From positions 1-47,004 of IMG/VR virus record IMGVR_UViG_3300031539_000063: DNA of 47,004 bases. One strand, written 5' to 3'. The notes beneath the pieces were generated by a model. That model searched no databases, had not been told where the DNA came from, and saw only the letters and a list, made by a program, of their open reading frames with translations. The first letter of the stretch is position 1; each line of letters begins with the position of its first letter. Below, piece by piece: positions 9,436 to 47,004 of the stretch. Origin of the DNA: a virus. The position numbers were made by a program, and so were the translations under genes.

Positions 9436-9522
9436 TGGCGGAAGGTGAAGGAGTCGAACCCTCGCCCGTAAAGACGCCCCGGCTTTCGACACCGGTTGCC
9501 AGCCAACCCAGCGGCACCTTCC
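9436..9522 (-). tRNA. tRNA-Ser(CGA)
   Basis: Type II; loop GTCGAAA, stem CCGGT/GCCGG, acceptor GGAAGGT/ACCTTCC, CCA encoded. Confidence 0.9.
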
Positions 9523-9529
9523 ATGATGT

Positions 9530-9565
9530 GTCCACATTTCGGATGATGTCATCCGGTTTGTGGAC
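9530..9565 (-). other. Long inter-tRNA stem-loop
   Basis: GTCCACA/TGTGGAC outer stem, 3x3 internal loop, then CGGATGA/TCATCCG inner stem. It lies between Ser(CGA) and Ser(GCT) and may be a processing stem. Same architecture as the stem-loop at 23547-23586. Confidence 0.7.
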
Positions 9566-9595
9566 TTGTGCGTCGTGCGTAATTACACACAACAG

Positions 9596-9680
9596 CGGAA
9601 GGTTGAGGACTCGAACCCCATGCCCTCGCGGGCACGCACTCCTTAGCAGGGAAGCCCGGAACCTTACCGGTCAACCTTCC
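9596..9680 (-). tRNA. tRNA-Ser(GCT)
   Basis: Type II; loop CTGCTAA, acceptor as in Ser(CGA), variable arm GTGCCCGCGAGGGCAT; no encoded CCA. Confidence 0.88.
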
Positions 9681-9681
9681 G

Positions 9682-9770
9682 TGGTGGGAGCGGTGGGAAT
9701 CGAACCCACTCAGGACGCAGTGCCTCCGGGTTTACAGCCCGGCCCGACTCTCCAACTTCGGCGCACTCCC
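9682..9770 (-). tRNA. tRNA-Tyr(GTA)
   Basis: Type II; loop CTGTAAA on CCGGG/CCCGG, T-loop TTCGATT, CCA encoded. First tRNA after the array promoter. Confidence 0.92.
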
Positions 9771-9784
9771 ATGTGTGGGGTGCA

Positions 9785-9855
9785 GCCGATATGTGGGCGC
9801 GCCCCGGTTCAACGACTCGATGAGTCGCTGCAACAACTACGGGACGAATATCGGC
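9785..9855 (-). ncRNA. Compact three-way-junction RNA (leader of Tyr/Ser/Cys array)
   Basis: GCCGATAT/ATATCGGC closes a 71-nt segment that contains hairpin CGACTC-GAT-GAGTCG (9813-9827) and palindromic GGGCGCGCCC (9795-9804). It begins about 8 nt after the predicted transcription start and ends 14 nt before tRNA-Tyr. It is tRNA-sized but no anticodon loop with T33 was found. Function unknown. Confidence 0.45.
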
Positions 9856-11012: not shown

Positions 11013-12652
11013 GGCTTCCACCCGTTCGTGATGGGGAGCCGTCGTTCCCGGCCGAACGCTCGGGTCGTGATCTTCACGCCCGGTGCCGACTGACGGCGCT
11101 TGTATTCGTTCCGATCCACCAGCCCGACGACACGCCGAACCGTGTCCTCCGCTCCGACCCCGCTCTCGATGATCTCGTCGACCGGCGTGTGATCCTCGAT
11201 GTACGCCGCGAGGATCGCGTCGAGCATCGGGTACGGCGGGAGGCTGTCCGAGTCGACCTGATCGGGAGCGAGTTCCGCCGATGGGGGTTTGCTGATCGTC
11301 GCCCACGGGATGCGTTCCTCGTGCCGGTTGACAAACTCTGCCAACTCGTACACGACCGTCTTGGGGACATCCTTCAACACGGCGAACCCTCCGGCCATGT
11401 CCCCATAGAGGGTGCAGTAGCCGACGGCCATCTCCGACTTGTTTCCGGTCGCCAACACGATCCCGCCGTGCTTGTTCGTGACGGCCATCAGGATCAGGCC
11501 ACGGAGCCGGGCTTGCAGGTTCTCCTCCGCGACGTTCGGTTCGGTCCCGTCGAACAGCGGTTCGAGCGCGCCCACCGCAGCGGCGTACATCGGTTTGATC
11601 GACACGTCATCGCAGTCGATCTCCAACCCGGCGGCGAGAGCGAACGAGTCCAACACCGATCCGCCTGACGACCACGGACCCGGCATCGTGATGCCCCGCA
11701 CCCGGCGCGGTCCGAGAGCGTCCACCGCTATCGCCGCGGTCAACGCACTGTCGATCCCACCGGACAGGCCGATCGCTACCGACGGAAACCCGTTCTTGTC
11801 CACGTAGTCGCGCAACCCGATCGTGAGTGCCCGGTACGTTTCCTCGATCCGGCCGATGGGTCGGGGGAACACGTGCTGCACCGGATCGTCGGTGTCGACG
11901 AACGCGACGTACTCCTCGAACTGCGACATCTCGGCCAGAACGTGCCCACGGTTGTCGACATACAGTGACCCGCCGTCGAACACGATCTCGTCCTGCCCAC
12001 CCACGAGGTTCACGTAGGCGACCGCACAGCCGGTCCTCAGAGCCGTCTCTTGGACGAGAATGCGTCGGGCCTCCACTTTCCCGTGGTGGAACGGTGAAGC
12101 GTTCAGAACGACGAGCAGCGCCGCGCCTTGTTCCGCAAGGTGGTCGGCCAACTCGGGTCGCCACAAGTCCTCACAGATCAGCACACCGACCTTCGTGTCG
12201 GCCACGTCGAACAGATCACCGGACCATCCGTCGGGGGAGAACTTGCCGGGAGCGAAGTAGCGGGCCTCGTCGAACACCCCGTAGTTGGGGAGCAGTTGCT
12301 TCGCGTAGTGGTGCCGGGCCTTCCCATCGCGGACAGCGACCGCGGCGTTCAGGACCGTGCGCCCCTCGGCATCGTGCGTCATGGGAGCGCCCAACGTCGG
12401 TGCGGCGTAGCCGATCACGGTGGTCACTGTCTCGGCTTCGGCGGCGATCCGTTGCGCTGCCTGCATCGACTGGATGACGAACTCGTGGCGGAGCAGCAGA
12501 TCCTCCGGCGGGTAGCCGGTGACGGCCAACTCGGGGGTGATGAGCAGATCGCACCCGGCTAGTTCGGCGTCGGCCATCGTCGCGACGATCTTCGCCGTGT
12601 TGCCGTCGATGTCTCCGACAGTGAGGTTGAGTTGAGCAAGTCCGATCTTCAC
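11009..12652 (-). CDS. nadE: Glutamine-dependent NAD+ synthetase
   Basis: 547 aa, two domains. N-terminal nitrilase/glutaminase domain (1-250) with the triad Glu in ITPELAVTGYPPEDLL, Lys in HHYAKQLLPNYG and Cys in GVLICEDLW. C-terminal ATP-pyrophosphatase domain with P-loop GLSGGIDSAL (about 280). It converts deamido-NAD to NAD+ using glutamine. All catalytic residues are present and length is that of the short bacterial form. GTG start at 12652 overlaps the upstream stop (GTGA); the homologous sequence MKIGLAQLNLTVGDIDGN begins exactly there. Confidence 0.95.
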   Translation of the reverse strand: MKIGLAQLNLTVGDIDGNTAKIVATMADAELAGCDLLITPELAVTGYPPEDLLLRHEFVIQSMQAAQRIAAEAETVTTVIGYAAPTLGAPMTHDAEGRTVLNAAVAVRDGKARHHYAKQLLPNYGVFDEARYFAPGKFSPDGWSGDLFDVADTKVGVLICEDLWRPELADHLAEQGAALLVVLNASPFHHGKVEARRILVQETALRTGCAVAYVNLVGGQDEIVFDGGSLYVDNRGHVLAEMSQFEEYVAFVDTDDPVQHVFPRPIGRIEETYRALTIGLRDYVDKNGFPSVAIGLSGGIDSALTAAIAVDALGPRRVRGITMPGPWSSGGSVLDSFALAAGLEIDCDDVSIKPMYAAAVGALEPLFDGTEPNVAEENLQARLRGLILMAVTNKHGGIVLATGNKSEMAVGYCTLYGDMAGGFAVLKDVPKTVVYELAEFVNRHEERIPWATISKPPSAELAPDQVDSDSLPPYPMLDAILAAYIEDHTPVDEIIESGVGAEDTVRRVVGLVDRNEYKRRQSAPGVKITTRAFGRERRLPITNGWKP

Positions 12653-13365
12653 TGTGTCGTCTCTCGGTAGAAGGGCGGGTAGAGGTTCTCTGTCAGAGCG
12701 GGGAGCGCGTAGAGCCGTCCAAGCCCAAGCGATCCTCCGGCTTCTTCCAGCCGGAATGTCGACAGGACTTTGCGGCGGAAGTTCGCCGGTTCGATGTCGA
12801 CACCCCACACCGTTTCGTAGACCCGTCGGAGTTGACCGATCGTGAACTCGTACGGCAGGAACGCGGTCGCGTGGGTCGTGTATTCGAGTTTCGCCCGTGC
12901 CCGTTCGATGGCGTCGTCGATGATCGTGCCGTGGTCGAAGGCGAGCATGTCGCGGTCGATCATGTCGACCGGCCAGTACCTTGCCTCCGCCGCGTCCGAT
13001 CCGGCGATGGGGTTGCCCGGCTCGGGGAAGAACGCGACGTACGCGATCGACACGATGCGGAACCGTGGGTCGCGGGACGGTTTGCCGTAGGCCCCCAACT
13101 GTTCGATGTGGCCGGAGAACAACTCGGTGCCTGTCTCCTCCTGCAACTCGCGGAGAGCGGCGTCGTCGAGTCCCTCGTCGTGTTCGACGAACCCGCCGGG
13201 GATCGCCCACTTGCCCTTGTACGGGTGCCCTGCGCGTTTCACGAGCAGGACTGACAGGTTGCCGTCGATGATGGTGAGCAGTACGAGATCGACGGTGATG
13301 CCGGTCGGCGGGTAGGCCGTCGGGTCGTAGGTGGCGAGGAACTCGGCTTCGGTCTGGTCGCTCAT
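12649..13365 (-). CDS. Nudix protein with NrtR-type winged helix
   Basis: 238 aa. Nudix box GGFVEHDEGLDDAALRELQEE (Gx5Ex7REUxEE) is complete, so hydrolase activity on ADP-ribose or a related compound is plausible. The C-terminal region (about 165-225, FLPYEFTIGQLRRVYETVWG...NFRRKVLS) matches the winged-helix domain of NrtR-like repressors, which bind DNA and sense ADP-ribose or NAD intermediates. Located inside the NAD operon with ATGA overlaps on both sides. It may be regulator, ADP-ribose pyrophosphatase, or both; the intact Nudix box slightly favours a retained enzyme. Confidence 0.85.
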   Translation of the reverse strand: MSDQTEAEFLATYDPTAYPPTGITVDLVLLTIIDGNLSVLLVKRAGHPYKGKWAIPGGFVEHDEGLDDAALRELQEETGTELFSGHIEQLGAYGKPSRDPRFRIVSIAYVAFFPEPGNPIAGSDAAEARYWPVDMIDRDMLAFDHGTIIDDAIERARAKLEYTTHATAFLPYEFTIGQLRRVYETVWGVDIEPANFRRKVLSTFRLEEAGGSLGLGRLYALPALTENLYPPFYRETTQ

Positions 13366-13991
13366 CGGATCAACGCTGGATCGTTGATGAACACCCCGGC
13401 ATCGGCCATCTCGGTGATCGCAGCGGCGATCATGTCGGCGTCGAGTCCGACGCAGAACTCGGTGAGCAGCGTCGTGTGGAACCCGTGGGCCACACCGTCG
13501 AGCGCGGTGGCCTTGTCGCAGAACTCGGTAGCGATTCCGCACACGTCGATCGACGTGATGCCGTAGCCCCGCAGCAACGTCGCGAGGGGGACACCGAGAT
13601 CGGTGGTGCCCTCGAAGCCGCTAAACGCCGGAGCGAACTGGCCCTTGCTGATGACGGCCGTAGGGGTTCCGGCGATCCCATTGAACGGGATGTTGCCCAA
13701 CTTGTCGTGGAACTCGGCGTCGCGAGTACCGGCAACCCCGTGGACGGGGAAGGTGGTCACGAAGTCCGGTTCCTCTCCGGGTGCGGCGAAGTGGTCGCCG
13801 GGGTCGATGTGCCAGTCGCGGGTGAACACGATCAGGTCGTAGAGCGGGGTCGGTCCGGGGCCGTGGGTCACGGCGTCGATGTAGTGCCGGATGCGTTCGG
13901 CTACGTCGTTCCCTCCGGGGACGGCGAGCAAGCCGCCCTCGCAGAACGTCTTGTTCACATCGACGACGATGAGTGCGGTGTTGGTGGTCAT
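13362..13991 (-). CDS. pncA: Nicotinamidase
   Basis: 209 aa isochorismatase-like hydrolase. Catalytic Asp in VVDVNKTFCEGG, metal site DWHIDPGDHF (D, H, H), Lys in SKGQFAP, and nucleophile Cys in VCGIATEFCDKAT. It deamidates nicotinamide to nicotinate, first step of the Preiss-Handler salvage route. AGGAGA precedes ATG 13991, 10 nt after the pncB stop; the gene's own stop overlaps the Nudix start. Confidence 0.93.
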   Translation of the reverse strand: MTTNTALIVVDVNKTFCEGGLLAVPGGNDVAERIRHYIDAVTHGPGPTPLYDLIVFTRDWHIDPGDHFAAPGEEPDFVTTFPVHGVAGTRDAEFHDKLGNIPFNGIAGTPTAVISKGQFAPAFSGFEGTTDLGVPLATLLRGYGITSIDVCGIATEFCDKATALDGVAHGFHTTLLTEFCVGLDADMIAAAITEMADAGVFINDPALIR

Positions 13992-14001
13992 GGGGCTTCT
14001 C

Positions 14002-15333
14002 CTAGTTCGGGGCCGCGCTGAGTGCGGGCCGTCCGGCTTCGATTCCTCGGTGCATCGGCCGAAGTTCAGCCATCGCTCCGTGGTGTGTCTGGCGGGCATG
14101 GACGAGCGTGCCGATATGGGGATTCACTCGCTTTCCGTCGCGGACCATCGGGTGCTGCAACGCACGGGCCAGCGGTGTCGACTGCGGATCGTCGTCGGTG
14201 AACCGAACCACGACCTGTTCCTCTACCGCGTGGCCTTCGGTTTCGAGAACGCGGAAGGCGTGCTTGCGGCCACCGACCGACGCTTTCCCGCTCGACCGTT
14301 TCTCGACAGGCCGGTAGGTGCCGTCGCCGTTTCCGATCGCGACCAACTTGTAGACCATCTCTGCGGTCGGGTGACCTGAGCCGGTGACCAACTTGGTGCC
14401 GACAAGGAACCCGTCGATGGGTGCGTCAGCCTTGACCAGTTTGTCGATCAGGTATTCGTCGAGATCGCCTGAGACGGTGATCTTCGTGACCGCTGCGTCG
14501 AGACTGTCGAGCAGCACACGGGCCTTCTTCGCTTCGGCGGCAAGATCGCCGGAGTCGATACGGATGTTCGCGGGGAACCTGCCGGTCACTTCACGACAGA
14601 CTTCGACGGCGTTCTTGATCCCCGTGGGGATGTCGTAGGTGTCGACGAGGAACGTGGTGTCGTGGCCGTACCGTTCGGCCTGCGCCCGGAACGCTGCACG
14701 CTCATCGGTGTGAAGCAGCGTCCATGCGTGGGCTGCGGTGCCGCCGGTCGGGACTCCGTAGAGGAACCCGGCTGCGAGGTTCGACGTGGCGTCGAATCCG
14801 CCGATGTAGGCGGCTCGTGCGCAAGCGGTAGCAGCGTCGGGGTCGGTACGTCGTCCCCCGCCTTCCAGCAGCGTCGCGAGTCCTGCCGCGGTTCGCATCC
14901 GGCTTGCGGCCGATGCGATTGCGCTGTCGTGGTTGAGGGTTGAGAGGATCAGCGTTTCGAGTACCACGCATTCTGCGAAGGTGCCTCGGACGGTGAAGAT
15001 CGGTGAGTAGGGGAAGTAGAGATCCCCTTCGGCGTAGCCGTCGATCTGTCCGGTGAACCGGTAGTCGCGGAGGTAGTCGAGTGTCTGTTCGCTGAGGAAG
15101 CCTCGTTCGCGGAGGTAGATCAGTTCGGCAAGGCTGCCGTCGGCGTCGCTGAATCGGAAGTTGTCGATGGCGTCGAGCAGTCTGCCGGTGCCCCCGACGA
15201 CACCGTAGCGGCGTCCTTCGGGGAGTCGTCTGGCGAACGCCTCGAACACGACGGGGGTGTCAGCGGTGCCTTCCGCGAGTGCGGCGTCGGCCATCGTGAG
15301 TTCGTAGTGGTCGGTTTGTAGGGCGGTGGTCAT
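14002..15333 (-). CDS. pncB: Nicotinate phosphoribosyltransferase
   Basis: 443 aa. The N-terminal LQTDHYELTMADA motif and the central GFDATSNLAAG, VDTYDIPTGIKNAVEV, RIDSGDLAAEAKKARVLLD and GTKLVTGSGHPTAEMVYKLV blocks are those of bacterial PncB. It makes nicotinate mononucleotide from nicotinate and PRPP. GAGGAG lies before ATG 15333. First gene of the NAD operon, downstream of a type B promoter and two palindromes. Confidence 0.95.
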   Translation of the reverse strand: MTTALQTDHYELTMADAALAEGTADTPVVFEAFARRLPEGRRYGVVGGTGRLLDAIDNFRFSDADGSLAELIYLRERGFLSEQTLDYLRDYRFTGQIDGYAEGDLYFPYSPIFTVRGTFAECVVLETLILSTLNHDSAIASAASRMRTAAGLATLLEGGGRRTDPDAATACARAAYIGGFDATSNLAAGFLYGVPTGGTAAHAWTLLHTDERAAFRAQAERYGHDTTFLVDTYDIPTGIKNAVEVCREVTGRFPANIRIDSGDLAAEAKKARVLLDSLDAAVTKITVSGDLDEYLIDKLVKADAPIDGFLVGTKLVTGSGHPTAEMVYKLVAIGNGDGTYRPVEKRSSGKASVGGRKHAFRVLETEGHAVEEQVVVRFTDDDPQSTPLARALQHPMVRDGKRVNPHIGTLVHARQTHHGAMAELRPMHRGIEAGRPALSAAPN

Positions 15334-15363
15334 GGGTGACTCCTCGATTCCAGTCTGTGTCAT

Positions 15364-15394
15364 CTTGACTCTATCTGTCAAGTCATTCTGACTT
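15364..15394 (-). promoter_or_regulatory. Two palindromes: candidate operator of the NAD operon
   Basis: AAGTCA-3-TGACTT (15380-15394) and CTTGAC-7-GTCAAG (15364-15382) overlap each other and lie just downstream of the -10 box, where a repressor would block transcription. The operon encodes an NrtR-like protein, the obvious candidate ligand-responsive binder (inference). Confidence 0.6.
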
Positions 15395-19051: not shown

Positions 19052-19285
19052 TCAGACCGGTTCAGGCACCGTGATGTAGCGCGACCCCGCGTTCGTCCAA
19101 CAGGAGGCGGTCACCGAAGCCGTGGAAGAACCTTCACGGAACTCCCACTCGGCTTCGGTGAGCCAACTCTCCCCTTCGACGAACTTCGCAACCTGACCGA
19201 CAAGACGCCCCAGCCAGTAGGCGGGGTCGCGGCGGAACTTCGCCAGCGACACGCTCGTGGTGACTTCCTTGCGTCCTCTTGCCAT
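19052..19285 (-). CDS. Hypothetical 77-aa protein after tmRNA
   Basis: Begins MARGRKEVTTSVSLAKFRRD and ends YITVPEPV; basic N-terminus, Trp-rich middle. ATG lies 2 nt after the predicted mature 3' end of the tmRNA, so maturation of that RNA would release an almost leaderless message. No family recognised. Confidence 0.6.
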   Translation of the reverse strand: MARGRKEVTTSVSLAKFRRDPAYWLGRLVGQVAKFVEGESWLTEAEWEFREGSSTASVTASCWTNAGSRYITVPEPV

Positions 19286-19287
19286 CG

Positions 19288-19680
19288 TGGAGTAGGTGGG
19301 AATCGAACCCACGTCCGCTGAGTGGTTACGTCGACTGATCTACGACCGTTCCTCGTCTTTCCGAGGCGTCCGGGCCGACCGGTAAAGGTCCGCATCCACC
19401 AGCGAGTCTCTCCTCGCAGTCCCCCCGTCTTTCCGGGGATGCCATCCCGTCTCTCCGGGCTGTCCGACCTGTTTGGTTTGCAGGGTCAGGTCGTACCCCG
19501 CCAACTCGTCTTTATCAGACGAGAACGCCCTCGCGGGCATCGAACTCTGCCCATAGGGCATCGCTCTCGGTATCGGCGCTGAAATCGGCGTCGTTTGGTT
19601 TGTTGCCCTGTTTTACGAGTCTGAGCAACTCGGGTCGCAGTCGGCGCTTCCAGATCCCAACGTCGAAACCTGTCTACCCC
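19288..19680 (-). ncRNA. ssrA: Transfer-messenger RNA (tmRNA)
   Basis: 5' GGGGTAG pairs with 3' CTACTCC; T-arm GGTTCGATTCCCACC; 5' region starts GGGGTAGACAGGTTTCGACG as in bacterial tmRNA. Aligning with mycobacterial ssrA puts the resume codon at GCC in GACGCCGATTTC; the tag would begin ADFSADTESD, be 24 residues long and end EGVLV before TGA. It resembles the acidic, -LV-ending tag of mycobacteriophage Bxz1-type tmRNA. CCA is not encoded. Confidence 0.88.
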
Positions 19681-20711: not shown

Positions 20712-21354
20712 TCAGAACTTTCCCTTCGCCCACTCCTGCACCCGCCACGACCGACCCCGCTCGTGATCCACCACGATCCCCCGCTGATGGTTGTGCGTGA
20801 ACCCCTTGGCCGGACGCTCCCCACCCGCAATCTGCGAAACGCGATTCGCGTTACGCGATTCCCGTTTCGCCCGATCCCGAGCAGACCCCACCCGACGCTC
20901 CAACTCACGAAACGCCGTCTGCCGGTTCTGCCACTGGGACCGCCCCTCGATGTGGACCCGCGTGCCCGTCGCGGTGTGAACCAACGTCACCGCAGAGTCC
21001 GTCGTGTTCTGATGCTGACCGCCCTTCCCCGATCCACGATCGAACGTCTCCTCGACCTCGGACCAGTCGAGCGACATATCGGATCGTCTATGGGCCTCGA
21101 CGACAGCGACCGTCGCTGTCGACGTGTGCCGTGCCGCCGCGCCTTTCGGGATGCGTTGAATCCGATGGACCCCGGCGTATGTCTCGGCCCACGAGCCGTC
21201 GTCGAGTTCGAGGATCAGTGTGCGGCCGTCGGACGGGACGACCTTTGCCGGGTCCGACCGGCGGCGCGCTGCACGCTTGAACGAGTCAAAGTAACTCCTT
21301 GCCGAAGCGTGCTGCGTCGTCGCCACCCTCGCCGGGTCGAACCTCGATCAACAT
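20712..21354 (-). CDS. Peptide chain release factor with programmed +1 frameshift
   Basis: Two frames make one protein of about 213 aa. Frame 0 from ATG 21354 (GAGGAAAGG upstream) gives 22 residues including EVRPGEGGDDA, the start of RF domain 2, and ends at TGA 21286-21288. The stop context is AAGGAG-TTA-CTT-TGA-C, the same layout as the prfB frameshift (SD-like hexamer, 3 nt, CTT TGA C). Skipping one T continues as DSFKRAARRR, then GVHRIQRIP, RHTSTATVAV and the catalytic GSGKGGQHQN (GGQ). Domain 1 is missing. The RF1 P-x-T tripeptide region reads PKG with a two-residue deletion, so stop-codon preference is unclear. Role: peptide release or ribosome rescue. Confidence 0.85.
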
Positions 21355-28161: not shown

Positions 28162-31100
28162 TCAGACGGCGCAGGCACACTCTCCGGTATCTCCGCATTC
28201 GCAGTCATGCTCCTCGATGGCAGCCTCGGCGGATTCCTCCACGTCGACTGTCACCTCGTCACCCTCTGCGAACTCGGCCTCCGGCTCCCCCTCGGGCACG
28301 GTGTCGATCTCGTCCTCGATCTCAGTGGACGGCTCCTCGGCAGCAGCGAGAACCTCGGTGCCTCCGATCAGCCGCAACTCGCCCAACTTGGCGAGAGTGC
28401 GCTCGGCCCGGAACGGACGCATCGCTGCACGAAGTTCAGCGACCTCGGCACGCAGAGCCTCAACCTCGGTGGCCGACGGCCCCGTGTTGTGCTTCACCAT
28501 GCCCAGTCCGACAACCGATTCGGCTTCGCCCGACACAGTGTCGAACACGCCCATCGGTTCATGCACCTCGATTGCCTCGCCGCCGGAAGCGACCAGACCT
28601 TCGACGATGAAGCCCGACACGTTCACGGCCAGCAGACCCACAACGGTCAACTTGCCGTTGATCTTCCGCCAGTCCGGGGAGATGTCCGAACCCCGAAGGG
28701 CACGAGCCATCTCCGGGGTCACATCGGACCGGAGCGAACCGGAAGCGACAATGCCCCACTCGTTCTCGTAGAGCGCCACGTCAGCCACAGCGCAGCCGGT
28801 GTGAGCGTAGAACGCCTGAGCGTCCGAAGCCTTCTTCCGAAGATCCGGGTGAACAGCGTCGATGTAGACCGGGCCGGTAGCGACGAGCGTGCCCTCCTCG
28901 GTCAACACGTGACCGGTGCGGAACGAAGCGAACGGAGCGCCGCCCTTCGGGACAGTCACACACCGCTTCGAGAAACCGATGTGGCACGAACCCCACTGGG
29001 CAACCAGACCGAAGATGCGGCCGTCAGCGTCGACCCGAACCGGGTGCGGTTCCTCCATGTCCTGCAAACCGAACCACCCGACCGGCGGGGCGCACGGCAC
29101 CTCGACCAGCGTGGCCGCGGCAGCCGAAGCCACCAACGCCTGCGGGTCGGACCCTGCACCATGACCTTCCGAGTAGGTGGTGAACTCGCCGGACACGAGC
29201 GGGCGGCTCACCGTCCACACGTCGCCCATCACCCCGGCAGCGACCAGCGCCGTCGATTCCTGCACGTCGGCAGAGTCGATGACAGCGATGTGTGCCTCTT
29301 GGAATGCGGGGAACGGCGTGATCGTCGCACCCATGATGCGACCCTCGATCAGAACCTCGATCGCTTCGGCTTCACCGAAGATCACGTCCTCGAAATCGAC
29401 CGCGTCGCCTTCGGGGGAACGGAACTCCACGACCACAGAGTCGATGTCAGCCGACACGCCTCGCATGGTGCCTTCGGAGATCAGACGTTGGGCTTCCTGC
29501 CCGTTGTCGCCCGAATCGAAGTAGCCGCGTCCGATGATGTCGAACACGCCTTCGGTGTTCGTCGGTGCCCGGTCGATCTCGTGAATCGAACCGGCGATCA
29601 CAGCGCCGTCGTGACCCATCGCGTTCACCGTCTGCAACATCAGCGGGATCGGCAGTTCACGGTGGGTCAGAGCCTCACTCGCGATCATCCGACCGTCACC
29701 CGACGGCAAACCCTCAACGATCAGGACGCCTTCCCAGTGAAACGGACCCTTGCCGCCTTCGGGGTGGACGAACGCCTCGGCTTCGCCGCCCATGTCGTCG
29801 TCCTCGTCGTGGGCAGCGGCCTCGACCGGCTCCTCCTCGACGATCTCCGCTGCGTCAGCGGTCACCGACTCGTCGGTGTCCTCATCGGCAGCCTCGGCCT
29901 CAGCGGGAACAGCGGCGACGATCTTGTCGGCCTCCGTCTCGGCCCAACGGCGAGCGATCTCGGCCACCAGCAAATCGGTGTCGATGTCGGCAAGGTCCGT
30001 GGACTCGTCGTCCTGCACGTCGGCCTCGAACTCGACTTCGACCGGGAACTCCTCGGCGTCACCGTCAGCGGCTTCCACCTCGGAACCCTCAACCTCAACC
30101 TCAGTGGCGGCAGCGAGAGCGGCCAGCACCGAATCGGGGTCGGTCAGGTCCACGACCGTTCCGGCTTCGACCTGCGAAGCGACCAGCGATGCGTCCTCGT
30201 CGGACAGCAACTCGGGAGCGTCCATCTCGGCGTCAGCAAGATGCGCCGCCAGATGGTCATAGACGCCCTGCCGGTCATCACCGGGGATCGTCGTTCCGCC
30301 ACGAGCGCCGTTCAGAACAGCGATACCCGTGATCGCAGCGACCACGTTCGCAGCGCCGGGGTTCCCGTCGGCATCGACCTCGTGGTGGATGAACCGGTAC
30401 GCGGCCTTCACATCGAGATCGGCTTCGTCGTCACGCCACGCGTACACCCGGTCGAAGTAGTCCGGGTCGTTCGGGGACACGACATTGACTTCGATCGCAG
30501 CGGCATCCCACGGCTCGTCGATCGTCGGCGTGTCATGTGCCGCGATTGCACCGAACTCAGTGGTCTGGTCGACGAACTCGGTGGTGTCGTCGTCCTCGGC
30601 CGCGAGTTCGCCCGTCTCTCCGACCGGCACCTCGATGCCTTCCTTCTCGATCCCGTCCGCAGGGGCTTCGATGACCTGAACGTCGTCGGCCAGTTCGGCC
30701 GGACCTTCGATCACGATGGGGGTCACGGAGTCGCCGTCGGCAGCGGCCGTGAGCGCGTCACTCACACCAAGCCGGGCAGCGAGACGGTCGACAACCGAGT
30801 TGACGAGAGCGTCAGCGATCCGGTCGGCCACACCATCTTCCATGACGGGCACAACATGAACCTGAACTTCGGCGCGGCCGACGTTCAACGCGGCACGCGC
30901 CGCGGTCAGGTCCGGCAACGGACCCTCGGTTTCAGTCGCAGCAGCGACGATCGGGATGGCTTCCCCTTCGGGGGCAACCTCAGCATCGGGCATGTCGGGC
31001 ATATCGACCTCCTCGTCGACCACGATCTCACCGCCGTCGTTCAGTTCGTCAGCAGCAACTTGCGCTTCTTCGACCGTCGCCCAGCAGCCGACGACCTCAT

Positions 31101-32679
31101 CCATCTCGATGTCCACAACCGCGTGAGACATCTCACCGTCGGTAGCGTCCATGCACTCGGGCGAGTTCTCCACGACCTCGAACATGCGGGGTTCGCCGCC
31201 GTTCATGTCATCGGCAACGGCCTGCGCTTCTTCCACGGTCGCGTGGCAGCCGCCTTCAACCTCGCCCGTCAGCGCGTTGACGACAGCGTTGGGAAGTTCG
31301 CCGCCCGACGATTCGACACACTCGGGGTTGTCGGGAGCGACGACGAACATCGGCATCTCCTCGGCGTCCTCGATCTCGTCCTCGATCCCCTCGGCGTCCT
31401 CGATCGCTTCGTTCAACGCCTCAGCGCGCATCGCGGCTTCTTCGAGCGTCGCGAAACAACCGTCGCGCTCCTCCGTCTCCCAGTTCCACACAGCGTGGGG
31501 CATCTCGCCGCCACTTTCATCCATGCAGTCGGGGTTGTTCGCAACCACGATCCAAGCCATGTTCGTTGAATCCTCCTGTTCCGCCTCATCCGGTGCCTCG
31601 ACGAACGCAACGTCGATAACACGCAGACCCCAGCGGAGAGTCATGTCATTGAATGTCAATGGTAGACCGACAACCTCGGTGTCTCCGGGGATGGGATCAC
31701 GAGCGAGCGTGATATGTGGGGTCCATCCTCGGTCCTCGGGGACGTGAACCCCGCGGCCTTCGAGAGCGTCGATCAGGTCTGCGCGAAGGTCGAACAGTCC
31801 CGGCACATCGACGAGAGCGATGAGGAGATCGTCCTCACTCTCCCCGAACGTGCCGAGTCCTGCAATCTTCCCTTCGAGCGGTACATTGGTTCCCGTCACC
31901 TCCAACAGCGCGGACACAATCGCCTCGCGGTCAAGGTGAGGATCGCCCTTGTGTCCGAGCCACAGCATCGTCAGATGCAGCATCTCGGCCGGTACGCCAC
32001 CCGGCAGAGCGATAGCGAGCCGTTCAGCGTCAAGCGGTTCGACAGTGATGATGACCCCATCGGGGCCTGCGCCGAACTCGGCCTTGTCCAACCGGATCGG
32101 GTGAGGGACCGTCTCGTCACCAAGATCGGTGTCGTCGTCGGTAGCGAGCGGTTCGGTCACCGGCTCGATGTCCGGGGTCACTTCCGGCACTTCTTCGATC
32201 GGCGGGGGCATCAACAGGTCAATCACGCCACGGGCAGGAACCACATCGGCCGGGGGAAGGATCACGCCGGAGATCGGCTCGGCCCGCTGCGAGTAGAAGG
32301 TGCAGACATCGTTCGCGTCGATCGCGCCCTGCACGACCACGCACGTCCCCTGCTCGCCCAGTAGCGGGGGTTGGTTGAAGAACCGGCAGTTGCCGCAGTA
32401 GTTCTCGCTACCGTCGTCGGCTTCGCGCAGGTTCGCGTCGCCCGGCGATTGGTCCGGCAACCCGTCATGGGGGTTGAGCAGCGACATCGCCGCCTGCGTA
32501 TCTCCGTCGAGCGCCATCGGCTTCGCCATGTGAGCCAACAGTTCCACGACCAGATCGTCGTCCATATCGGCAACCGGCGTGGCCGGAGCGTCGGCCAAAG
32601 CGATGAGTGCTTCGAGCGCGGGAGCGAACTGCTCGATCAGAGCAGGGGTCAATCGGTGGCGTGGCTCGCGATGCGACAT
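28162..32679 (-). CDS. Giant capsid-maturation-protease fusion with 2H phosphoesterase domain
   Basis: 1505 aa; GGAG precedes ATG 32679. Order: helical start; Cys motif YCGNCRFF...CTFYSQR (about 92-130); a 2H phosphoesterase domain (2'-5' RNA ligase family, about 205-385) with LHLTMLWLG and PHITLA (HxT motifs); three ~50-residue repeats, each with PxCM/V-xx-GGE-(M/L)xxAV and a (C)xATxEEA tail (about 390-560); acidic linkers; a conserved VYAWRDDEAD...GVYDHLAAHL domain (about 740-820); the prohead protease domain FHWEGVLIVEG...MGHDGAVIAGSIHE (about 990-1150); coat-like and coiled-coil C-terminus ending in CECGDTGECACAV. It lies beside MuF and portal genes. Probably head maturation/scaffold; the role of the 2H domain is open. 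Confidence 0.85.
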   Translation of the reverse strand: MSHREPRHRLTPALIEQFAPALEALIALADAPATPVADMDDDLVVELLAHMAKPMALDGDTQAAMSLLNPHDGLPDQSPGDANLREADDGSENYCGNCRFFNQPPLLGEQGTCVVVQGAIDANDVCTFYSQRAEPISGVILPPADVVPARGVIDLLMPPPIEEVPEVTPDIEPVTEPLATDDDTDLGDETVPHPIRLDKAEFGAGPDGVIITVEPLDAERLAIALPGGVPAEMLHLTMLWLGHKGDPHLDREAIVSALLEVTGTNVPLEGKIAGLGTFGESEDDLLIALVDVPGLFDLRADLIDALEGRGVHVPEDRGWTPHITLARDPIPGDTEVVGLPLTFNDMTLRWGLRVIDVAFVEAPDEAEQEDSTNMAWIVVANNPDCMDESGGEMPHAVWNWETEERDGCFATLEEAAMRAEALNEAIEDAEGIEDEIEDAEEMPMFVVAPDNPECVESSGGELPNAVVNALTGEVEGGCHATVEEAQAVADDMNGGEPRMFEVVENSPECMDATDGEMSHAVVDIEMDEVVGCWATVEEAQVAADELNDGGEIVVDEEVDMPDMPDAEVAPEGEAIPIVAAATETEGPLPDLTAARAALNVGRAEVQVHVVPVMEDGVADRIADALVNSVVDRLAARLGVSDALTAAADGDSVTPIVIEGPAELADDVQVIEAPADGIEKEGIEVPVGETGELAAEDDDTTEFVDQTTEFGAIAAHDTPTIDEPWDAAAIEVNVVSPNDPDYFDRVYAWRDDEADLDVKAAYRFIHHEVDADGNPGAANVVAAITGIAVLNGARGGTTIPGDDRQGVYDHLAAHLADAEMDAPELLSDEDASLVASQVEAGTVVDLTDPDSVLAALAAATEVEVEGSEVEAADGDAEEFPVEVEFEADVQDDESTDLADIDTDLLVAEIARRWAETEADKIVAAVPAEAEAADEDTDESVTADAAEIVEEEPVEAAAHDEDDDMGGEAEAFVHPEGGKGPFHWEGVLIVEGLPSGDGRMIASEALTHRELPIPLMLQTVNAMGHDGAVIAGSIHEIDRAPTNTEGVFDIIGRGYFDSGDNGQEAQRLISEGTMRGVSADIDSVVVEFRSPEGDAVDFEDVIFGEAEAIEVLIEGRIMGATITPFPAFQEAHIAVIDSADVQESTALVAAGVMGDVWTVSRPLVSGEFTTYSEGHGAGSDPQALVASAAAATLVEVPCAPPVGWFGLQDMEEPHPVRVDADGRIFGLVAQWGSCHIGFSKRCVTVPKGGAPFASFRTGHVLTEEGTLVATGPVYIDAVHPDLRKKASDAQAFYAHTGCAVADVALYENEWGIVASGSLRSDVTPEMARALRGSDISPDWRKINGKLTVVGLLAVNVSGFIVEGLVASGGEAIEVHEPMGVFDTVSGEAESVVGLGMVKHNTGPSATEVEALRAEVAELRAAMRPFRAERTLAKLGELRLIGGTEVLAAAEEPSTEIEDEIDTVPEGEPEAEFAEGDEVTVDVEESAEAAIEEHDCECGDTGECACAV

Positions 32680-32707
32680 AGATACTCCGTGGGGGCGGAC
32701 ACCACGA

Positions 32708-33010
32708 TCATACGTCACGGACACCCCGGCGGACGTGGAGTGCCGCTGTCAACGCGTTTCTTGCCGCCGTGGTCAACTGCGCCACGTCAGACTCCCCGGT
32801 CCCGTCAGCGGCATCCTCGTCGGACTCACGGGCTTCCACCACCGCTTGTATCGCCGCTTCACCGACGAACTCCAAATCCCCCGTCAACTCGCCATCGAAC
32901 AACGCGAGGATGAACCGGGCCTCGTCCTCCGGCACCGAGAACGTCAACATGATCGACTCGACCTGCCGGTCCTCATCCATGTCATCCCACTCAACAACTT
33001 CAACTGCCAT
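32708..33010 (-). CDS. Hypothetical 100-aa protein
   Basis: Begins MAVEVVEWDDMDEDRQVESI; acidic, helical. ATG overlaps the MuF-zincin stop (ATGA). Between head genes, so possibly a small head-associated or chaperone protein (inference). Confidence 0.6.
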   Translation of the reverse strand: MAVEVVEWDDMDEDRQVESIMLTFSVPEDEARFILALFDGELTGDLEFVGEAAIQAVVEARESDEDAADGTGESDVAQLTTAARNALTAALHVRRGVRDV

Positions 33011-43813: not shown

Positions 43814-44064
43814 GGGTCACCGCCTACACCTACCACGCCGACATCTACTGCCCCACCTGCGTCATCGAGACGATGCTCGTCAACGGTGAAGCGTCACCCG
43901 CCGCCCGAGACATGGGGGCCGAAGCCGCCCTCGATCAGATCGCCTCAGCCAACGCGATCGACCGGTACGACGAAACGACGTTCGACTCCGACGACTTCCC
44001 GAAGGTCGTGTTCCCCAACATGCTCGACGGCGAACAATGCGGAGGGTGCGGAGAACCGCTCTAG
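43810..44064 (+). CDS. Zinc-binding hypothetical protein, 84 aa
   Basis: YCPTCVIE near residue 14 and CGGCGEPL at the C-terminus make a four-Cys site. Its 3' end overlaps the convergent papain-like gene by 4 nt. Confidence 0.65.
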   Translation: MRVTAYTYHADIYCPTCVIETMLVNGEASPAARDMGAEAALDQIASANAIDRYDETTFDSDDFPKVVFPNMLDGEQCGGCGEPL

Positions 44065-44738
44065 TCGGAACCCCACGCCCGGACCAGCGGGACACACGCC
44101 TCGCCGTCCTCATCCAACAGACGCTCCACGTCACCCCACGAAATCAACGCCTCGCCGCCACTGCCCCAGCCGGAACCCCACGAGTTGTGGATCGTGAACG
44201 TCCGATCAGCGACGTTCACCCCGTTCACCAGATAGCAGTGACCGCCAGCCTGCTCGCCGCCGACATGGATACGGCCACAGTCGCGGACCTCGAACATCTC
44301 CTCGTACCACCACGTCCCGAGAGCAACCGGGCCGACGAACCCGACGGCCAACACCAAGTCGGCCAGCCCGAACGCCCACCGGTACTGATCGACGAACCCG
44401 TCACGTTGCAGGATCTTCACGCCCGCAAGAGTCGACGTGCCGTCGTAGTCCTCGCCGGGCCACGGGTCAATTTTCTGAGCCTGCCGGTAGATCGACATGC
44501 CCCTCGCGTAATCGGCCGGGATCACCTTCGGGCGCGCCGCCATCTCGTGCGCCATCGTGAACCCCACACACGCCCCATCGGAACCCTGATCGAGTTGCGT
44601 GTCGCAACGCCACGTGTAGGACCGGGCCACCCGGTCAGCGACCATCGTGCGCACCGGGAACGAACGGGACCGTTCATCGAACTCACGCAGCCGCCCGAGC
44701 CGTTGGTCCGCCACTTCGCTTCCGTCACGCATCCTCAT
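44061..44738 (-). CDS. Papain-like cysteine peptidase
   Basis: 225 aa. QGSDGACVGF (oxyanion Gln and nucleophile Cys), GGHCYLVNGV (His) and IHNSWGSGWG (Asn) match the C1 papain triad. No signal peptide seen, so it probably acts inside the cell or virion. AGGAG precedes ATG 44738. Substrate unknown. Confidence 0.85.
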   Translation of the reverse strand: MRMRDGSEVADQRLGRLREFDERSRSFPVRTMVADRVARSYTWRCDTQLDQGSDGACVGFTMAHEMAARPKVIPADYARGMSIYRQAQKIDPWPGEDYDGTSTLAGVKILQRDGFVDQYRWAFGLADLVLAVGFVGPVALGTWWYEEMFEVRDCGRIHVGGEQAGGHCYLVNGVNVADRTFTIHNSWGSGWGSGGEALISWGDVERLLDEDGEACVPLVRAWGSD

Positions 44739-44742
44739 CAGA

Positions 44743-45306
44743 TCATCTCCTGTAGTCCTCGACAACTCCCATGATCGCATCCCCAAGCACCTCTACGGTG
44801 GAGTCGTTGCCGATCACGTAGTCGAAGTCGTAGTCGTCGAGCGCCGTTTCACTGGGGTGGTCGTTCGCCGGGCCGACTCCGGGCCGTGTTACCCGCACGG
44901 TGATTCCGCCGCGGGCCTTGATCGCTGCCGCCTCGTTCGGGAACCGCATGTCAGCGATCGCCACGTCACGGTCCGGGTCGAGCAGGTTGAACGTCGCGTC
45001 GACCCACACGTCCCCGCCGATGATGTTGCGGCCGACCTCGGTGCCGAGCCGCTGCAAGGTGCGGCGCAGTTCCGGGTACCGGGCCTTCGCTTCGATGTAG
45101 CCGAGCGTGTCGATCGCATCCGTGTAGCGGACCACGACAACCTCGTTCGACTCGTCGGTGCTGAACCCCACGATCGGGTTGAGCGCCGCGGCGCACGCCC
45201 GAAGCGAGTCAGCGAACGCCGTCTTGACGAACCCGGCCTTGTCGACGAGAACGTCTGCGGCCGAGTCCTTGCCTGCGGTCGCGTATCCTGCGAGTCCTAC
45301 GATCAC
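44743..45306 (-). CDS. Deoxynucleoside monophosphate kinase-like
   Basis: 187 aa. P-loop GYATAGKDSAAD near residue 7; DVWVDATFNLL and DMRFPNEAAAIKARGG (lid/Arg region) match phage dNMP kinases such as T4 gp1 relatives. These phosphorylate dNMPs for phage DNA synthesis. GTG start at 45306 with GGAAGGGGA upstream. Confidence 0.82.
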   Translation of the reverse strand: MIVGLAGYATAGKDSAADVLVDKAGFVKTAFADSLRACAAALNPIVGFSTDESNEVVVVRYTDAIDTLGYIEAKARYPELRRTLQRLGTEVGRNIIGGDVWVDATFNLLDPDRDVAIADMRFPNEAAAIKARGGITVRVTRPGVGPANDHPSETALDDYDFDYVIGNDSTVEVLGDAIMGVVEDYRR

Positions 45307-46003: not shown

Positions 46004-46267
46004 TTAGTTCCAACGCGGGTCGCCGTTGCCGTCGCGCTTCGGGATCAACTCGGATGTCCTGACGGCCAGACCCGAGATCGAGAGCCGCACGACCATCACG
46101 CCGAGGAGACATGCCCAATAGGAGTAGGCGAGATCGACGCCTGCTTCGTGGGAGAACCCGCCGAGTGCGAGCATGACGAGCCATGCCCGGAAGAACAGGA
46201 ACATCCAACTCCCGATGGAGCGGCCGAAAGCGTCGGCTCCGGGGTTGGGCTTCTTCTTCGTAGTCAT
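46004..46267 (-). CDS. Small membrane protein, 87 aa
   Basis: Basic N-terminus (MTTKKKPNPG), hydrophobic segments near residues 20-37 and 49-66. Leaderless start: TACCGT ends 7 nt before ATG 46267. No family recognised. Confidence 0.65.
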   Translation of the reverse strand: MTTKKKPNPGADAFGRSIGSWMFLFFRAWLVMLALGGFSHEAGVDLAYSYWACLLGVMVVRLSISGLAVRTSELIPKRDGNGDPRWN

Positions 46268-46295
46268 GGGGTAGACGGTAGCCGCGTTGATGGGC
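46268..46295 (-). promoter_or_regulatory. Type B-like promoter
   Basis: TACCGT (46275-46280), 11 bp, GCCC in place of GTCC. Confidence 0.45.
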
Positions 46296-46353
46296 CTACG
46301 CCATCTGTTGCACGCCCGTCGACAGAATGATCCGTTCGACCTACAAGTTCGAG

Positions 46354-46382
46354 TTGCAAAGTGTGGACGCAGCGTGTACGGT
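46354..46382 (+). promoter_or_regulatory. Type A promoter of structured RNA
   Basis: TTGCAA (46354-46359), 17-bp spacer, TACGGT (46377-46382). No start codon follows at the leaderless distance. Confidence 0.7.
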
Positions 46383-46388
46383 TACATT

Positions 46389-46910
46389 CATCAAGTCATA
46401 CCCCGCAAGGGAGCGCCACCCGAAAGGGGAGAGCGGCACGGCGGTTTGGGACCGCAGAACAAGACCCAACGAAGTCTCACTTTCTCAGTAGGTTCCCGAG
46501 TGGAACTAACGGACGAGCCGGACACGGCGAGTGATCTCAAGCGGGCTTTGATGCGAGCGACCGGGATGGTCGTACTGCTCTGCTGAACCGAAAGGTTCCA
46601 AGCAACAGGAGGCCAGATGGCCGAGTATCTCATTCAGCGCACAGAGAGCGACCCAACGAGTACGAGCACTGGCACGGGGGCCTACTGAGAAAGTGAGACG
46701 GTTCGATGGCCTACACGACTCACTCGTGAGACGTAGACGCCGACGACCATCCCGTCCGCTCACGCGGTGCGCTACCCGAGGGAACTCGGATGTCACAAGG
46801 GGATGGAGGCTCACCACCACACGGAGTTTGTGCCGAGGTGGCCGAGTACGGTCGGATGCCCTAAACCTGCCCACAGCGGAAACGCTGAGGATGGGGGCAT
46901 AGCAGTCTGC
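46389..46910 (+). ncRNA. Candidate large structured RNA
   Basis: Perfect 19-bp stem: 46474-46492 pairs with 46681-46699. Inside are GTTCC/GGAAC (46492-), GCCG-GACA-CGGC, CGACC-GGGAT-GGTCG, GAACC-GAAA-GGTTC and GGCC-AGAT-GGCC. Outside are GCGGT/ACCGC (46441-46455), CCGAG-GGAA-CTCGG, ATGCCC/GGGCAT (46856-46899) enclosing AGCG-GAAA-CGCT. Several loops are GNRA type. No credible ORF with a start signal. Size and layout resemble large phage ncRNAs such as GOLLD or ROOL, which also occur near tRNA clusters; identity is not established and the 3' end may lie beyond the window. Confidence 0.65.
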
Positions 46911-47004
46911 GCGACGAGGGAGTCATGTAGATCATCGACCCTTTCCACCCCGAGTCAAGATCGCCGGACAGTTGCACGGCATCTCCTTCCCCAGCCGGTC
47001 ACGC

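Follow-up and report, generated by a model that had tools for sequence, protein, structure and literature searches.

The DNA analysed here (the window), 47,004 bases long, is a linear virus fragment from IMG/VR (IMGVR_UViG_3300031539_000063) that appears to originate from a soil actinophage. Near its right end, a phage-type promoter on the + strand (46354-46382) is followed by at least 615 nt of non-coding-looking sequence up to the window end, and the assignment of this locus to a large structured, probably non-coding RNA (ncRNA) is well supported by its sequence features and predicted folding. The promoter matches the motif TTGCANNNTGTNGACN6-8TACNGT, which occurs in six copies in the window and, judging from these sequences, clearly represents a strongly conserved, phage-specific promoter class. 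In five of the six copies (1212, 7954, 10381, 20704 (-) and 42079 (+)), an ATG lies 5-7 nt past the -10 element, the arrangement expected of leaderless genes, whereas the sixth copy has no ATG and is followed instead by TACATTCATC (longer run TACATTCATCAAG), starting CATC. A sequence-only reading of this DNA had described just such a promoter, of the type used by the leaderless genes but lacking a start codon, and the motif copies bear that description out. A generic consensus sigma-70 scan misses this phage promoter type and does not detect the copy at 46354-46382.

Coding signal is absent from the region. Codon log-odds, obtained with a score trained on 16 genes (0.20 to 0.51; seven smaller candidate genes score -0.03 to 0.56), were below background for all ten open reading frames (ORFs) tested on both strands of 46287-47003 (-0.14 to -0.71). 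Pfam returned no meaningful match for any of the seven region ORFs searched, and tblastn against phages returned none for the two searched. The earlier statement that no frame here looks coding thus stands, and the sequence downstream of the promoter is probably non-coding. ORFs of 80-122 amino acids are present, and one of them could in principle be a real small protein gene, with the structure arising by chance or as a by-product of GC-rich sequence; we consider this very improbable given the uniformly negative codon scores, the lack of homologues for the ORFs searched and the failure of shuffles of equal composition to reproduce the stems described below.

The proposed RNA would start at about 46389, a position derived from where the ATG falls after the sister promoters, and its 3' end is placed from the fold only, such that the transcript may run past the contig end at 47004. 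The promoter and the parts of the proposed RNA are as follows.

46354-46382 (+): phage-type promoter TTGCAAAGTGTGGACGCAGCGTGTACGGT, with -35 region TTGCA/TGTGGAC and -10 TACGGT; one of the six motif copies
46389-46985 (+): proposed structured ncRNA of ~600 nt; fold z-score (z) -4.8 over 597 nt, 0/60 shuffles as stable, no coding signal
46402-46457 (+): 5' segment, with GNRA hairpins CCC-GCAA-GGG and CCC-GAAA-GGG and a GCGGTTTGGGACCGC hairpin
46435-46445 (+): possible closing stem P1, 5' strand; pairs with 46947-46956, probability 0.73-0.79
46474-46498 (+): long stem H1, 5' strand; 19 perfect bp among 25 pairs
46555-46573 (+): crossing complement I2, 5' arm; 17/19 complementary to 46743-46761
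46585-46598 (+): GAAA tetraloop hairpin GAACC-GAAA-GGTTC, from the fold and the GNRA count
46675-46699 (+): long stem H1, 3' strand, from complementarity and pairing
46703-46744 (+): rod H2, 5' strand; pairing probabilities 0.85-1.00
46743-46761 (+): crossing complement I2, 3' arm; duplex -31.9 kcal/mol
46776-46789 (+): GNRA hairpin CCGAG-GGAA-CTCGG, from the fold and the GNRA count
46851-46938 (+): rod H2, 3' strand segments (46851-46855 and 46905-46938), between which a GAAA hairpin arm (46856-46900) branches
46874-46887 (+): GNRA hairpin CAGCG-GAAA-CGCTG, with a CCTAAACCT/AGGATGG internal loop beneath
46947-46956 (+): possible closing stem P1, 3' strand; weak, with short segments and mismatches
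46958-46984 (+): 3'-most hairpin AGAT-C-GCCG...CGGC-ATCT; possible transcript end, no U tract

Among 470 windows of 300 nt scanned on both strands of the 47 kb, 46401-46700 (+) is the most strongly folded (z -6.25) and surpasses the windows that hold tRNAs and the transfer-messenger RNA (tmRNA). The second strongest 300-nt fold (9505-9804, -; z -5.2) spans a tRNA-Tyr gene (9682-9770) and the edge of a tRNA-Ser gene and exceeds the other tRNA windows. The perfect 19-bp long-range stem reported in the sequence-only reading is exact: its two strands, GTCTCACTTTCTCAGTAGG and CCTACTGAGAAAGTGAGAC, lie at 46474-46492 and 46681-46699 and form the core of H1, which extends to 25 pairs including two G-U. 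Best ungapped complementarity was 19 for H1, 13 for H2 and 13 for I2, whereas none of 200 dinucleotide shuffles exceeded 12. No shuffle was as stable as the H1 domain (z -6.1), nor were any of 200 as stable as the H2 domain (z -4.8), in which helices of 5-7 bp separated by single mismatches or small loops build a rod of ~35 bp; the 5' segment (46402-46457) alone folds no better than chance (z -0.46). I2 crosses both H1 and H2, competes with a local hairpin (-9.1) and a helix (-14.1), and could, from these predicted pairings, be a pseudoknot bridging the tips of the two arms, a switch or alternative fold, or a contact between copies. GNRA loops are in excess on the + strand (5 versus 1.2 expected, P 0.006), also when only stems of at least 5 bp are counted (3 versus 0.17 expected, P 0.002), whereas the - strand has one or none, and none on stems of at least 5 bp. 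Direct repeats GACCCAACGA and AGRTGGCCGAGTA were dismissed as a feature, being at about chance level by rough estimate rather than by a tool result.

Searches for relatives of the RNA mostly reach fairly close relatives only, such that a diverged family could have been missed by them, and they returned none: not by blastn against phages and plasmids, an exact 22-mer scan of viral contigs, a six-peptide scan in which an open frame spanning the final 79 codons served as proxy, or searches through the complete records of the closest known actinophages (Atuin, Pumpernickel, DSL-LC01, E3 and Pointis). When a covariance model built on 46732-46911 was run against 24 records, it matched only itself, apart from one match at E 0.34. 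The candidates that did arise were rejected: a 45-nt match in a Streptomyces dengpaensis plasmid (E 3e-4) is isolated, has no flanking similarity and was taken as chance or hairpin convergence; the one match of a gapped motif scan of viral contigs (L017) lies inside coding sequence; and two matches of a structural-motif scan of 84,980 genomes were both chance. Two viral contigs reached through the portal, L042 and L043, belong to the same phage (99.98-100% identity), with the compared parts, 24.8-41.6 kb, ending short of the RNA locus. Contig L018 is syntenic through the gene at 46004-46267 and then has protein-like ORFs in place of the RNA, which therefore looks like an accessory locus. All relatives reached through the peptidase gene (44061-44786, -), except L018, have just that gene in common with the window. 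The peptidase gene itself shows 37-60% identity among many otherwise unrelated viral contigs (L019-L034; up to 372 kb, L021), a spread pointing to its frequent transfer.

The sequence-only reading had also raised the possibility of membership in GOLLD, ROOL, OLE or HEARO, which the Rfam searches do not support. Rfam 15 cmscan of 46270-47004 with permissive filters yielded no accepted family, HEARO, group I/II introns and RNase P included, and, even at an E of 5, no match reaching its cut-off, while tRNA and tmRNA elsewhere in the window were recovered by Rfam. Two sub-threshold matches, to HgcC (E 0.04, 19.6 bits versus a cut-off of 50) and to Guanidine-III (E 2.5, far below cut-off), were dismissed as chance. 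Three of the families were also searched by name. The ROOL model (RF03087) had no match in the window at E 10, and the same search gave 130.4 bits (E 1e-29) on L. salivarius pMP118 as a positive control; the OLE model (RF01071), searched without a positive control, had none at E 10 either. The GOLLD model (RF02032) had no match at E 10 up to the contig end at 47004, with control genomes also below cut-off, and a GOLLD RNA with its 3' part past 47004 would escape this search, since RF02032, judging from its length of 416 positions, is confined to the conserved 3' part. The locus might thus be the variable 5' part of a GOLLD RNA, a reading in keeping with the short Rfam model, the occurrence of GOLLD in mycobacterial tRNA arrays (PMC6582537) and the 35 tRNA genes of this phage. 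We regard it as quite unlikely because a 5' part of 615 nt holding two large domains would be long for an RNA whose complete members are described as exceeding 800 nt, no trace of GOLLD appears up to E 10, and the tRNA array lies 22 kb away on the other strand. The 35 tRNA genes and a tmRNA all sit on the - strand, from 5.5 to 24.6 kb, that is, 22-41 kb from the RNA locus, which lies outside the array; a neighbourhood of tRNA genes, as seen for GOLLD, is therefore lacking, although this distance is not decisive because GOLLD is only often near tRNAs. The tie to tRNA clusters suggested earlier consequently survives as presence in the same phage, and the association is loose.

Several results weigh against a stand-alone RNA gene. 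No homologue was found, so the fold is predicted from a single sequence, and the only syntenic relative found, L018, has no such RNA at this position. The hairpins interior to H1 (46499-46674) are no more stable than shuffled sequence (z -0.2); of the roughly ten hairpins, several with GNRA loops, put forward in the sequence-only reading, the loop excess holds and the stability of those inside H1 does not, and the significant structure lies in the long-range stems, not in the small hairpins inside H1. The - strand folds as stably as the + strand, as expected where inverted repeats dominate, and fold energy alone therefore does not choose a strand; the strand is set by the promoter and the GNRA loops. 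The equal folding of both strands, the three inverted-repeat pairs within 600 nt and the missing locus in L018 would also fit inverted repeats that act as DNA (a packaging, replication or recombination site, or a mobile-element relic) with an incidental RNA fold. Such a DNA site is quite improbable, because the GNRA excess is one-stranded and matches the promoter direction, H2 is a bulged rod and no clean repeat, and the arms are at least 169 nt apart. A last point of concern is the 3' end, as no clear terminator was seen up to 47004. With the contig stopping 615 nt past the promoter, and with protein genes using the same promoter type, the sequence could be a long structured 5' leader (a regulatory untranslated region) of a protein gene starting beyond 47004. 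This we consider unlikely, since the genes served by the sister promoters are all leaderless, a leader of more than 615 nt with two long-range arms of 25-35 bp would be unusual, and the weak closing stem and the 3' hairpin suggest a self-contained RNA, which, from the same two predicted elements, may be nearly complete at ~600 nt.

With its own promoter, no ORF and an extensive fold, the locus has the features of a large structured phage ncRNA, and we favour its interpretation as a stand-alone phage gene for such an RNA, GOLLD/ROOL-like in mode, at a probability of roughly 0.7. It is probably a lineage-specific gene that resembles GOLLD and ROOL at best in how it works. The more specific proposal of a new class of large ornate phage RNA, without sequence kinship to GOLLD or ROOL and with the 19-nt I2 bridging the two arms within one molecule or between identical copies, is tentative; new-class status is possible and hangs on a second member.

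For the favoured stand-alone RNA gene, we infer rightward transcription of an RNA of ~600 nt from a copy of the leaderless-gene promoter. Because the start codon is missing after the promoter, ribosomes would not be loaded and the product would act as RNA. Its two long arms, H1 and H2, would meet near 46700, possibly closed by the weak terminal stem, and the GNRA loops and I2 might supply tertiary or intermolecular contacts. By analogy with GOLLD and ROOL (PMC12286853), an abundant RNA made during infection could then fold into a particle for holding or sequestering ribosomes, tRNAs or some other host factor; that the RNA self-assembles to form the particle is speculative.

The encoded proteins, together with weak DNA matches, suggest that this locus is carried by a large actinobacterial phage for which no close relatives are known. 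Its portal is ~30% identical to portals of Microbacterium and Arthrobacter phages, and it has a capsid-maturation-protease region in common with Atuin, Pumpernickel and DSL-LC01. The gene at 28162-32724 (-) encodes a 1520-aa protein with a MuF/capsid-maturation-protease-like region at about residues 997-1376, and residues 219-352, toward the N-terminal side, match PHROG RNA ligase families. Near the tmRNA (19285-19680) of this phage with 35 tRNAs lies a gene for a peptide chain release factor-like protein with an RF-1 domain (20712-21326, -). Nudix hydrolase-like and nicotinamide phosphoribosyltransferase-like genes lie close by each other at 12649-15381 (-), and these PHROG matches suggest a phage nicotinamide adenine dinucleotide (NAD) salvage module.

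GOLLD and ROOL exemplify large phage RNAs that are abundant, form RNA-only cages and, to our knowledge, have no known function. If our interpretation is correct, an unrelated RNA of GOLLD/ROOL build would suggest that phages arrived at such RNAs more than once, and the locus would add a further example for asking what large phage RNAs hold, one whose promoter invites comparison with its sisters at protein genes. ROOL, which forms a multimeric RNA nanocage (PMC12286853), is likewise large (574 model positions), structured, borne by phages or prophages and often found in genomes with tRNA islands, but the RNA here falls outside the ROOL model at E 10 and is not adjacent to tRNAs. GOLLD, known from actinobacterial tRNA arrays (PMC6582537), is similarly large, ornate and phage borne, but its model gives no match here, with the proviso that its conserved 3' part may fall outside the contig. 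OLE is of similar length (616 model positions) and has an elaborate fold, but again its model finds no match. Other likenesses are found in ICP1, whose most abundant transcript is an unclassified ncRNA of ~800 nt (PMC7567579), and in phage K, two long non-coding RNAs (lncRNAs) of which have been likened to GOLLD and ROOL (PMC9241854); like the RNA proposed here, these are large phage ncRNAs in ORF-less gaps, but they were seen in RNA-seq, whereas the present one is predicted from sequence and was compared by BLAST of phage records. ICP1-type lncRNAs diverge strongly between related phages (PMC9040626). In kind, then, the RNA proposed here belongs with the large structured phage ncRNAs, and unclassified, fast-diverging examples of these are already documented in ICP1 and phage K.
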